A stretch of DNA of 34,011 nt from Ruminiclostridium sp. (GTDB lineage: Bacteria > Bacillota > Clostridia > Oscillospirales > Ruminococcaceae): the NCBI GenBank assembly GCA_017479645.1, contig JAFVBZ010000269.1, positions 1-34,011 on the forward strand. Reading direction: 5' to 3'. The notes beneath the pieces are model-generated. The model did no database searches and was not told where the DNA came from. It saw only the letters and a list, made by a program, of their open reading frames with translations. Below are positions 30,630-33,924 of the stretch, piece after piece; position 1 is the stretch's first letter; every line of letters starts with the position of its first letter. Made by a program: the position numbers and the translations under genes.

Positions 30630-31663
30630 TGCAGCTCTCCGAGCCGTTTCAGAAGCTCCCGCGCAGTATCGAGCACTGCCGTAACGTCCTCTTTCTTCAT
30701 CACGCAGGAGGGGGAATGCAGGTAGCGCGTCGGAACGGAAAGTGCCGCTGTGCGCACCCCGCCTACCGCCTTGTGAACGGCTCCGCTGTCATTTCCGCCG
30801 GCGATAAGGGATTTGGTCTGGTTCTTAACACCGATGTCGTCCGCAGCCCTGCGCGCCAGCCTGTACAGCTCACGGTCATATATCGTCGATCTGTCCATGA
30901 ACGATACCACAACGCCCTCACCGAGCCGGCAGACTTCCTTCTCGTCCTCGCTTCCGGCAATGTCGCAGGCGGTAGTCGTTTCAAGTATTACCGCAATGTC
31001 CGGCTTGACGGTGAACGCAGCGCACTGCGCACCGCGGGTCCCGATCTCCTCCTGCACCGTGAAAACGAAATACGCGTCATACGGCAGCTCCTCATTCAGC
31101 ATCGTCAGCATCACCGCACAGCCCGCACGGTCATCAAGCGCCTTGCCCTTGATAAAGCCGTCGCCGAACTCCTCATAGCTGCCCATAAAATAGCAGAAAT
31201 CGCCCTGATCGGCGTACTTTCTCGCTTCCTCGGCATTCTCCGCGCCTATATCTATCGCAAGATCCTCGATCTTCGGCTGCTTTTCCTCTTCGTCGGAAGT
31301 GAGCTGATGCAGCGCCTTCGCCGCTATCACGCCGACAGTCCCGTTCGCAAAAACCACCCTCCTGCCGAACACAACGGAAGAAGAAATGCCGCCGACAGGT
31401 GCAAATTTCAGCCGTCCGTCCTCACACACATAGGTCACGATAAAGCCCACTTCGTCCATGTGCGCACAGTACATTATCTTCTTTGCGGGAGTCTGTGCGC
31501 CCTTTTTGAATACGATCAGATTGCCGATGCTGTCAGTGGTGACGGTGCAGCCGGCAGGTATCCGGGAAGATATGAAATCGCGCACCGCGCCCTCGTCTCC
31601 GCTTGTACCGCAGAGCTTTGACAGCTTTTCCGTAAGATCGAAAAGCTCCTTGTTTTCAGACAT
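30626..31663 (-). CDS. M42 family metallo-aminopeptidase, second copy
   Basis: 345 residues of the M42 (glutamyl aminopeptidase/FrvX-like) family, dinuclear cytosolic enzymes that form tetrahedral dodecamers and trim peptides. Metal and catalytic residues are visible in MYCAHMDEVGFIV, KALDDRAGCAVML, FTVQEEIGTRGA, VILETTTACD and GGNDSGAVH. The frame opens earlier at a GTG, but GGAGG places the start at the ATG at 31663, overlapping the first M42 gene by 8 bp. It is only moderately similar to its neighbour, so the two probably differ in residue preference or form mixed complexes. Confidence 0.93.
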   Translation of the reverse strand: MSENKELFDLTEKLSKLCGTSGDEGAVRDFISSRIPAGCTVTTDSIGNLIVFKKGAQTPAKKIMYCAHMDEVGFIVTYVCEDGRLKFAPVGGISSSVVFGRRVVFANGTVGVIAAKALHQLTSDEEEKQPKIEDLAIDIGAENAEEARKYADQGDFCYFMGSYEEFGDGFIKGKALDDRAGCAVMLTMLNEELPYDAYFVFTVQEEIGTRGAQCAAFTVKPDIAVILETTTACDIAGSEDEKEVCRLGEGVVVSFMDRSTIYDRELYRLARRAADDIGVKNQTKSLIAGGNDSGAVHKAVGGVRTAALSVPTRYLHSPSCVMKKEDVTAVLDTARELLKRLGELQ

Positions 31664-32684
31664 CTCCCTCACCTCCGGTCAGAAATGCAGCCATAAGTCT
31701 GCCAACAGCTTCCACATCAACGGTATCGATCACCTCAACCGGCGTGTGCATGTACTTCAGCGGTATTGATATCAGCGCCGTGCGAATGCCGCCGTGGGAA
31801 ACGGAAATGTCGTCCGCGTCGGTGCCGGTGGAACGCCCCATGACCTCGGTCTGGAACGGTATCTTCTTATCCGCGGCAAGCTTTTTCAGCTCCACGGTGA
31901 TCTCTCTGTCAAGCACGGGTGAAACGCCGATCATCGCGCCCTTTCCCATGACTCCGCACTCGTGCTTCTTCGCGTCGGAAGTGTAGGCAAAGCTTACGTC
32001 CGTTGCGAGAGCGATGTCGGCGCGGCTGTTGAACGCGGATATTATCGCGCCCCTGCTGCCGACTTCCTCCTGCGACGCGAAAAGGACTTCTATATTATAA
32101 GGAAGCTCCCGTCCTTTCACAAGCTCCAGCGCGTGCAGGACAGCTGCCACTCCGGCGCGGTCGTCAAGCGCTTTTGCAGTGCGTCTTGTGCCTGCAAGCT
32201 TTGCAAGGCGGTTGTCTATAGTTACCCGGTCGCCGGGAGAAACGACTTTTTCTGCCGCTTCACGGCTCGGAAATCCCACATCTATCGCAATATCGGAAGT
32301 TTTCTGCGTCTTGTCCTTATTATCGGCTGCGACATGCGGCGGGAGAGTACAGATAACTCCCCGGATATCCCCGCTCTCACAGTGAACGTTGACAGTCTGT
32401 GCGGCATAGAGCCTTCTGTCGGTACCGCCGCAGTTCCCGACTTTGAGGAACCCGTCCTCGTCGATGTAGGTGACAATGAAGCCGATCTCGTCGATGTGTG
32501 CTTCGAGCATAACGGTAGGCTTTCCGTTGTTCCGGTCACCGATAAATCCGGTGACACAGCCGAATCTGTCGGCTGCTGCATCGGGAGCGTACTGCGCAAG
32601 CAAGGCTCTTGCAGCTTCACAGGCTCCGTCTTCCGCACCGGAAACGCCGTTTGCGGCACAGAGCTTTTCAAGTATTTCGTCCAT
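31656..32684 (-). CDS. M42 family metallo-aminopeptidase, first copy
   Basis: 342 residues with the full M42 set: MLEAHIDEIGFIVTYI, KALDDRAGVAAVL, FASQEEVGSRGA, LATDVSFA, and GRSTGTDADDISVSHGG near the end. The family was once called cellulase M, but members are aminopeptidases. AAAGGAAATAAT precedes the ATG. It is the first gene of an M42-M42-GNAT operon. The only promoter candidate I see on this strand is at 33052-33080, which would place the structured element at 32718-33058 in its leader. Confidence 0.94.
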   Translation of the reverse strand: MDEILEKLCAANGVSGAEDGACEAARALLAQYAPDAAADRFGCVTGFIGDRNNGKPTVMLEAHIDEIGFIVTYIDEDGFLKVGNCGGTDRRLYAAQTVNVHCESGDIRGVICTLPPHVAADNKDKTQKTSDIAIDVGFPSREAAEKVVSPGDRVTIDNRLAKLAGTRRTAKALDDRAGVAAVLHALELVKGRELPYNIEVLFASQEEVGSRGAIISAFNSRADIALATDVSFAYTSDAKKHECGVMGKGAMIGVSPVLDREITVELKKLAADKKIPFQTEVMGRSTGTDADDISVSHGGIRTALISIPLKYMHTPVEVIDTVDVEAVGRLMAAFLTGGEGDV

Positions 32685-32717
32685 ATTATTTCCTTTCGAT
32701 TAAAAACAAACTCGATC

Positions 32718-33058
32718 TTATTAATTAATGTCTGCTCATCAACCGTGAAAAGGCTTCAAAGCGCAGCTTGAAGGCTTTTTACGGTTGCAAAAGTGCAAGG
32801 AAAATTCCGAAATAAACAAATTATCCTTGCACTTTTGTTCGTCCGAAGGACGAAATGAGCTTGACATCAAGGAATGTGTTCGCCTTAAAAAGACGCTTAT
32901 GACACGACGTCATACAGAAGATTTCCAAATGCGTGCATGGACGCACGCATTAAAGAAATCTTCGAGAAAGCGTAATTTTAAGGCTTTCCGAAGTCCGCTT
33001 TGCGGATTTCGGAACAACAACTGCCAAAAGGCAGTTGTTGAGGACACATTAATTATAA
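32718..33058. ncRNA. Dense array of stacked hairpins: candidate structured RNA leader or fold-back element
   Basis: A 341-bp non-coding element between divergent M42 and M23 genes. Domain 1 is closed by ATGTC/GACAT (32728-32732/32863-32867) and GCTCAT/ATGAGC (32734-32739/32855-32860). It holds three adjacent hairpins: 32741-32786 (19-position stem), 32788-32837 (14-bp perfect stem) and 32838-32854 (7 bp). Domain 2 is closed by 32882-32898 with 32968-32984 (15 of 17 pairs) and holds hairpins at 32898-32914 and 32917-32963. Two more hairpins follow directly at 32986-33014 (13 bp) and 33015-33040 (11 bp). The ends TTATTAATTAATGT and ACATTAATTATAA are near-perfect inverted repeats. Linkers are 0-2 bases. 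Strand is unresolved: two G-U pairs favour plus, a promoter favours minus. Confidence 0.6.
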
Positions 33059-33080
33059 CACTTTACCCTTGCATTTACAA
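33052..33080 (-). promoter_or_regulatory. Candidate promoter reading into the hairpin array and the M42 operon
   Basis: TTGTAA (33080-33075), 17-bp spacer, TATAAT (33057-33052) on the minus strand. The -10 box is perfect. The RNA would start near 33045, exactly where the hairpins begin, and reach the M42 start codon after about 360 bases. The -10 box overlaps the element's terminal repeat. Confidence 0.55.
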
Positions 33081-33103
33081 GTGCGGAACCTAACATTTTT
33101 TCT

Positions 33104-33132
33104 GCATAATCCCGGAAATTATGGTAAGAATA
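33104..33132 (+). promoter_or_regulatory. Sigma-F-like forespore promoter of the SpoIIQ-like gene
   Basis: GCATA (33104-33108), 14-bp spacer, GGTAAGAATA (33123-33132). This agrees with the sigma-F pattern GYWTA and GGnrAnAnTw as known from Bacillus, with a spacer about one base short. In Bacillus, spoIIQ is a sigma-F gene. No sigma-A promoter was seen here. Confidence 0.5.
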
Positions 33133-33192
33133 TTTCCATAAAGACACGATGTCTTGAACGCACCATTACATGAACAGAAAGGAACGGAAAAT

Positions 33193-33924
33193 ATGAAAAA
33201 GGTAAGATTTACGAACGGTATACAGGGCAAGGGGTTTGCAGCGGCACTTGCGCTCAGTATATGTGCGGTGGGGCTGTCCACCTACGCTGCGTACAACGGA
33301 GCGATGAGAAGCGCCGTCACCCCGAAGGAGGAGCAGTATGACGACAATGTTTTCATTTTCACGGAGCCGGCGGAGACTGTAAACGCGGAGAAGACGGGAA
33401 TACCGAAGGAGACCGCGAAAGCGACAGAAGCTGCTGTTGAGGAGTATGCCGTGCCAATCACGGAGGAGCCTGCCGAAACGGCGCTTGCCGATGAAGCCGG
33501 GCTTATATTCAAGAGCGCAAAGACTGTCCCGATAGCGGACGGAAAGGTGATAAACCCGTACAGCGGCGGCGAGCTTGTAAAGAGCGAGACACTCGGAGTA
33601 TGGAAGACCCACGACGGCGCGGATATTGCCGCTCCTCTCGGCACGGCGGTTTCGGCGATGATGAAGGGAACGGTGACGGAAGTAAAGAATGATCCGCTCT
33701 GGGGAGTCTCGGTGACGATCGATCACGGGGACGGTGTGATCGGCTATTACTCGAATCTTGACACGAACGTGAGTGTTAAGGCGGGGCAGGAAGTAGCCAT
33801 GGGCGAGATCATAGGTCAGGTAGGCAATACCGCGGACATCGAGTGCAAGCTCGAACCGCATCTCCATTTCGGCGTGACCGTCGGCGGCGCCTGGACAGAC
33901 CCAATGAAGTTCGTCGAGAGTTAA
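33193..33924 (+). CDS. M23/LytM-domain membrane protein, SpoIIQ-like
   Basis: 243 residues. One N-terminal membrane helix (about 14-35), a Glu/Ala-rich linker (about 45-105) and a C-terminal LytM domain. The zinc ligands appear intact: His140 and Asp144 in THDGAD, and His223-x-His225 in PHLHFGV. VGNTADIECKLEPHLHFGV is the pattern of SpoIIQ, the forespore protein that pairs with SpoIIIAH across the engulfing membranes; clostridial forms often keep the metal site. A general M23 endopeptidase is the alternative. The ATG at 33193 is set by AAAGGAACGG. The sigma-F-like promoter upstream supports the sporulation role. Confidence 0.78.
   Translation: MKKVRFTNGIQGKGFAAALALSICAVGLSTYAAYNGAMRSAVTPKEEQYDDNVFIFTEPAETVNAEKTGIPKETAKATEAAVEEYAVPITEEPAETALADEAGLIFKSAKTVPIADGKVINPYSGGELVKSETLGVWKTHDGADIAAPLGTAVSAMMKGTVTEVKNDPLWGVSVTIDHGDGVIGYYSNLDTNVSVKAGQEVAMGEIIGQVGNTADIECKLEPHLHFGVTVGGAWTDPMKFVES

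Follow-up and report, generated by a model that had tools for sequence, protein, structure and literature searches.

The locus and its architecture

The window, that is, the whole stretch of 34,011 nucleotides of Ruminiclostridium sp. contig JAFVBZ010000269.1 that was analysed, carries between two peptidase genes a dense array of hairpins, which a sequence-only reading had delimited as 32718..33058 (341 bp). The array as such was confirmed, while aligned copies and an empty site reduce the element itself to 322 bp, at 32728-33049. The features of the locus are as follows.

31656..32684, minus strand: M42 glutamyl aminopeptidase gene (Pfam PF05343, E 1.1e-78)
32722..32727, no strand: left target-site duplication TAATTA, a direct repeat with 33050-33055, present as a single copy in the empty allele of genome G061
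32728..33049, plus strand: whole element, 322 bp, with ends ATGTCTGCTC...GAGGACACAT (aligned copies and empty site)
32728..32867, plus strand: unit A, a four-way junction closed by ATGTC/GACAT and GCTCAT/ATGAGC (fold)
32740-32787, 32788-32837 and 32838-32854, plus strand: hairpins of unit A (fold)
32868..32873, plus strand: linker CAAGGA, left unpaired when the bare element is folded
32874..33049, plus strand: unit B, closed by ATGTGTTC/GGACACAT (fold)
32882-32984, 32986-33014 and 33015-33040, plus strand: hairpins B1 (which holds the insert), B2 and B3 of unit B (fold)
32898..32965, plus strand: 68-bp insertion in the loop of B1, a second dispersed hairpin repeat, with no duplication observed (a gap in 42 of 46 copies)
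33050..33055, no strand: right target-site duplication TAATTA (comparison with the empty allele)
33052..33057, minus strand: -10-like box TATAAT of the interrupted promoter (sequence; also found in G061 and G034, where the site is empty)
33075..33080, minus strand: -35-like box TTGTAA, 4/6 to TTGACA, with a 17-bp spacer to the -10 box
33193-33924, plus strand: M23 peptidase gene, on the other side of the element

The stacking of hairpins is real. Folded as RNA, the region 32700-33080 reached -167.3 kcal/mol on the plus strand and -161.7 kcal/mol on the minus strand (z -14.6 and -13.3), and the hairpin stretch folded as DNA gave a z of -17.8; none of 100 shuffles folded as well, either as RNA on both strands or as DNA. 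The near-equal folding of the two strands was a first hint of palindromes rather than of one RNA. Two units, A and B, joined by CAAGGA, make up the element. An ATGT/ACAT inverted repeat bounds each unit, inside which lie three hairpins separated from one another by 0-1 unpaired bases. The four-way junction (32728-32867) folds as first described, and its closing helix is 99.2% paired in 46 copies, the closing helix of unit B being paired in 100% of the lettered cells of the same copies. The supposed three-way junction at 32882-32984, however, is a hairpin with a 68-bp insertion in its loop, an insertion absent from 42 of the 46 aligned copies; and the right part of the element, drawn earlier as that junction plus two terminal hairpins, also forms one closed multi-helix unit in the fold (32874-33049).

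The insert in the B1 loop (68 bp, 32898-32965) accounts for the difference between a 322-bp and a 254-bp class of copies. Copies of the 322-bp class occupy several unrelated sites (the window, L028, L107 and L137), so that the element has moved after acquiring the insert. The smallest copies (39-51 bp) hold little beyond the ends and one hairpin, and internal hairpins are swapped or absent between copies, the lengths forming a ladder from 39 to 322 bp.

The second dispersed repeat, of about 68 bp, is composed of a small hairpin ATGACA..TGTCAT and a GAAGGTTTCC..GAAACCTTC hairpin. Besides window 32898-32965, copies occur at four further loci of the same genome that match the insert alone, namely L042 (1003-1074 and 1412-1489), L046 (1057-1118), L047 (1005-1045) and L221 (812-876). 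No target duplication was seen around them, and the repeat sits in the loops of other hairpins, including the terminator-like ones at L042 and L046.

Ends, target duplications and empty sites

The element of the window runs from ATGT to ACAT between two copies of TAATTA. Its terminal inverted repeats, ATGTCTGCTCA and TGAGGACACAT, are short (about 11 bp, with two mismatches), the consensus in the family being ATGT[C/G]T[G/C]CTCA. Of the terminal repeats proposed earlier, the ends are indeed inverted, the outer part being the palindromic target duplication itself (TAATTA, 32722-32727 and 33050-33055). Aligned copies showed ATGTC...ACAT ends with direct repeats on either side, mostly TAATTA, TTATTA, TATTTA and TACTTA. 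In the family the duplication is 6 bp long, rarely 7, and resembles TAATTA, which is also what the target logo of the insertion sites reads; one such logo was drawn from sites preselected for a duplication with at most one mismatch, some of the elements being wrongly oriented, and the unbiased figure comes from end pairs unselected for duplication. In the loci used for this test, 78 out of 141 left ends had a right end no more than 400 bp away. A duplication with at most one mismatch flanked 74 of the 78 pairs (62 exactly), against 0.9% among 20,000 pairs drawn at random. Of the four pairs without it, L029 is truncated by the end of its contig. The 63 left ends lacking a right end at this distance would be explained by contig ends, truncation, divergence of the right end or chance matching. 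A wider search that required the duplication recovered 90 element sites across the fetched loci, all of 39-322 bp and too short for a transposase gene; no end pair longer than 322 bp with an exact duplication was found among these loci.

The element was removed in silico from ten insertion sites of the same genome, the joined flanks were compared with 15 genomes, and the empty-site alleles asked for by the sequence-only reading were present: gap-free empty sites could be aligned for four copies, the window copy included. In G061 (record DEWH01, UBA3215) the window site reads CTTATTAATTATAAC, with a single TAATTA and without the element, at 98% identity, and in G034 it is empty at 78% identity, the target having diverged. 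The C205 site is empty in G061 (91%) and the C200 site in G024 (98%), and the C10 copy interrupts another repeat; G062 has an uninterrupted copy of this repeat, whose alignment spans the join for 117 bases (96%) with no gap. Two sites are occupied in both G000 and G061: C160, with 254-bp versions, and C150, an orthologous site at which element length varies (88 bp in G000 vs 194 bp in G061).

A third repeat of at least about 117 bp (CAATTCACAATGCACAATTTTGGAGCGCGCTC...) was met at L039 (about 988-1068 and 1276-1312), at L232 and at 15 places in G061; it has many copies in the latter genome, and one copy in the genome of the window is interrupted by the element.

Copies and distribution

Searching the element's own genome yielded 41 matching pieces, among which are hairpin arms that match themselves. 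Merging them gave the window and 18 other family loci, some perhaps halves of one copy: nine show both ends and flanks (L028, L036-L040, L043-L045), eight lie at a contig end, where some are possibly halves of one copy (L029-L035, L222), and L041 matches the family over just 41 bp. Across 61 genomes, matches occurred in eight (the own genome and 7 of 60 relatives), all of the same genus; the carriers include G000, G002, G007, G011, G024, G034 and UBA3215. The 19-base left end was found in 101 stretches of the genome_contigs collection, whose record titles name, with one exception, Ruminococcus, Ruminiclostridium, Ruminococcaceae or Clostridia, several of these records taking their names from samples of the rumen or another ruminant stomach; in L129 ('uncultured bacterium') the left end is followed by no family sequence. 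The phage and plasmid collections held no match to the element. In viral contigs, 15 stretches matched a 17-bp left end, 11 of them sharing one common sequence and none having a right end within 500 bp; these matches were put down to chance.

With multiple copies in one genome, target duplications and exact empty sites, the suggestion of a fold-back mobile element has been upheld. The array is very probably a non-autonomous fold-back transposable element, similar to miniature inverted-repeat transposable elements (MITEs).

Some copies lie close to one another. Head-to-tail pairs were seen at L056, L062, L084, L210 and L211, with one target-like hexamer between the right end and the next left end, the neighbours being elements or fragments. 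Furthermore, two inverted elements about 2.1 kb apart (L308, 1040-1293 and 3385-3638) flank a GGDEF gene in G061, an arrangement which could constitute a composite mobile unit.

Insertion at promoter-like sites and the leader hypothesis

When the right flank is read inward, the target reads TATAAT/TA and the minus strand of the element follows; TAATTA is often the tail of a -10 box. In the window, the -10-like and -35-like boxes at 33052-33080 face the M42 gene, which lies downstream with its start codon 43 bp from the element, and their 17-bp spacing is found also in the G061 and G034 alleles. The -10 box survived the insertion intact while the start region was replaced, and the M42 peptidase mRNA, if the promoter is used, would accordingly begin within the right end of the element. 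The mRNA would then start with a folded 5' leader of about 320 nt, and a folded 322-nt leader on this message is likely, judging from the arrangement of boxes, element and gene. Many -10 boxes end in sequence shared with TAATTA, so that some insertions would leave the promoter intact and directed into the minus strand; such a leader is likely at this locus and at some others, where the insertion lies just downstream of a promoter-like -10 box. The giant cis-regulatory leader proposed earlier thus does not describe the nature of the element, but is a likely consequence of its insertion at these loci, on the minus strand. In an orthologous region (L254, G065:C40:5900-7100), a different tandem repeat, with units of about 100 bp, separates the promoter region from the M42 gene.

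A further step, which would add to the mobile-element reading, is that the inserted element has been co-opted as a folded RNA that regulates the downstream gene, with processing by RNase III as one conceivable route. In addition to the boxes kept in the empty alleles of the window site, the family provides evidence on this point. On the right flank, the -35 hexamer score peaked 17 and 18 bp from TATAAT, where 10 and 4 of the 89 sites, respectively, matched at least 5 of 6 positions, against a background of 0.7 sites per spacer at 20 other spacers; nevertheless, a weaker peak at spacer 17 was present on the left flank too (4/89). A sigma-70-like promoter directed into the element, with scores of at least 5 for the -10 and at least 4 for the -35 box, was found on 19 of 89 right flanks and on 4 of 89 left flanks, compared with 8.6% of 1408 motif-matched sites elsewhere in the loci, weighted by target hexamer. 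Once a good -10 box is given, however, the enrichment is modest: the -35 score was at least 5 at 11 of 56 sites vs 8.4% of 596 controls (p 0.013), and at least 4 at 19 of 56 vs 20.6% (p 0.027). All 12 consensus positions were matched at several sites (L102, L128, L160, L185 and L187), the consensus promoters of L102 and L185 falling inside crude ORF calls.

By the same crude calls, the gene contexts of 61 of the 89 sites could be classed (20 --, 19 -+, 15 +- and 7 ++); another 20 sites lay within ORFs of 80 aa or more, and the other 8 were left unclassed. Tandem contexts favour the minus strand (20 vs 7 on the plus strand, p 0.019), which speaks for the co-opted leader. On the other hand, a minus-strand gene start within 200 bp on the far side was no commoner at promoter-like sites (both scores at least 4; 10/22) than at the others (28/67), so gene position does not separate the two groups. 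Altogether, co-option as a regulatory leader is a plausible but tentative addition, somewhat more doubtful than not.

Two other observations concern the flanks. The stop codon of right-hand minus-strand genes lay within 7 bp of the right end of the element in 14 of 35 crude ORFs, as is expected if TAA stop codons form part of the target. At L049 (about 1000-1035), the insertion is at the end of a coding sequence that by eye looks of the dockerin type.

Proposed mobilisation of the element

Given the target duplications and the ends, it is proposed that a transposase acting in trans would recognise the ends and make staggered cuts at TAATTA. Hairpins can be gained by insertion into loops, an event seen once, in the 68-bp insert. 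Four transposase families were searched in five genomes (G000, G002, G011, G034 and G061), which gave one match to PF01609, three to PF00665, three to PF00872 and none to PF12762. None of these seven loci showed a pair of element ends with a matching duplication; G061 matched none of the four families, yet carries copies of the element. When the element ends were searched in 8, 61 and 2 genomes, no autonomous partner was seen among the matches listed, nor was a longer version of the element present among the fetched loci. Inward-facing end pairs at kilobase distance (L204, L205 and L308) proved to be separate short elements or fragments around ordinary genes, such as a GGDEF gene.

An alternative is transposition through melted DNA. 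The element would fold on either single strand as a chain of junctions and enter promoter open complexes at the -10 box (TATAAT/TA), and its copies would become transcribed folded leaders; the enzyme would be of an unrecognised type, because carriers such as G061 match none of the four families searched. This route is considered improbable.

Conservation of the helices

Covariation was assessed in an alignment of 46 copies of 241-322 bp, of whose 4755 cells 94.6% are paired. Changes on both sides were found in 41 pairs (421 cells, in which inherited changes are counted many times; six SIG537-type rows are poorly aligned in unit B). The pairing, the changes on both sides and the covariation score were reached by none of 500 shuffles, and sliding the partners by 1-3 columns lowered the pairing to 36.5-42.9%; the count of further pair types was not above that of the shuffles (369/500). 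Compensatory changes, looked for at the suggestion of the sequence-only reading, are therefore present across the copies, although this pattern is also expected from DNA palindromes.

Together with the strong fold, these changes are what would be seen if the element were a novel structured non-coding RNA class under selection for its folding. Moreover, and in keeping with the earlier statement that the array matches no known RNA class, no Rfam family reached its gathering score in the window, and a search at E of at most 1 on 32600-33150 gave nothing convincing (best sub-threshold E 0.31). A slight lean to the plus strand appeared in two counts: in fold energy, the plus strand being stabler by a median of -1.5 kcal/mol and in 41 of 68 copies (p 0.053), and in the cells of the window structure, with 142 G-T against 93 A-C, a lean that is biased since the structure came from the plus-strand fold. 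Despite the covariation, wobble pairs are rare and symmetric between strands: in the 68 copies of at least 140 bp, G-U pairs numbered 178 on the plus and 165 on the minus strand (p 0.66), making up 2.8% of plus-strand pairs, which argues for DNA palindromes rather than one RNA. Nor do hairpins that are swapped or absent between copies of such different length, target duplications with empty sites, and gene contexts that are tandem, divergent and convergent agree with an RNA class, which is accordingly very unlikely. The helices are taken to reflect palindromy at the DNA level. It would be maintained there by selection for the folded form or by template-switch correction; palindromes corrected in the latter way would look no different from palindromes selected as folded DNA, and the observations fit both. 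Finally, a passive repeat spread by recombination or slippage, compatible with the failure to find a transposase among four families in five genomes, is hardly credible, given that the insertions at unrelated loci are precise and duplicate a 6-bp target.

Comparison with known repeats and significance

IS families such as ISDol1 make duplications of 6-7 bp, and the comparison of these families with the mobile element described here is one of duplication length only. A closer resemblance is found to bacterial MITEs (Correia/NEMIS, ERIC/IRU and QMITE2), which the passages cited describe as short, with terminal inverted repeats, target duplications, AT-rich targets and strong stem-loops (PMC10969869, PMC2229807), all of them features of the present element. 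In most MITE families, according to the same part of the literature, one stem-loop is formed by pairing of the ends (PMC2229807), whereas the interior of this element consists of modular hairpins in two closed units; one family spans 39-322 bp, and no parent IS was found in the searches made. For NEMIS, processing by RNase III has been proposed (PMC2229807, in the passage cited).

The Bacillus cereus repeats bcr1-bcr18 are presented in the cited text as interspersed, of 100-400 bp, with mobile features and confined to one group, with up to 130 bcr1 copies per strain (PMC6542083). The element shares with them its interspersed nature, mobile features and restriction to one group. The mobility of bcr is tied there to a TTTAT motif (PMC6542083), unlike the TAATTA target, as read from the logo, and the ATGT...ACAT ends of the element. 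Caulobacter CIR repeats, as portrayed in the source, have two inverted-repeat arms and a linker (PMC2229807), a layout found in the element too, although here each arm is a multi-helix junction; the comparison is one of arm layout. CIR repeats also possess a GANTC motif.

No paper on this element family was found in the literature searched, in which subscription journals are poorly covered. It is a new family of fold-back, MITE-like elements, a variant characterised by a modular two-unit hairpin architecture and by frequent landing on -10 boxes. A conspicuous hairpin array is in this way explained as a mobile repeat, and the ladder of sizes (39-322 bp), the swapping of hairpins and the nested insert offer a view of how complex folded DNA grows. 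If the promoter-facing insertions do form leaders, the element would provide one-step rewiring of 5' UTRs in Ruminococcus-type bacteria of the rumen.
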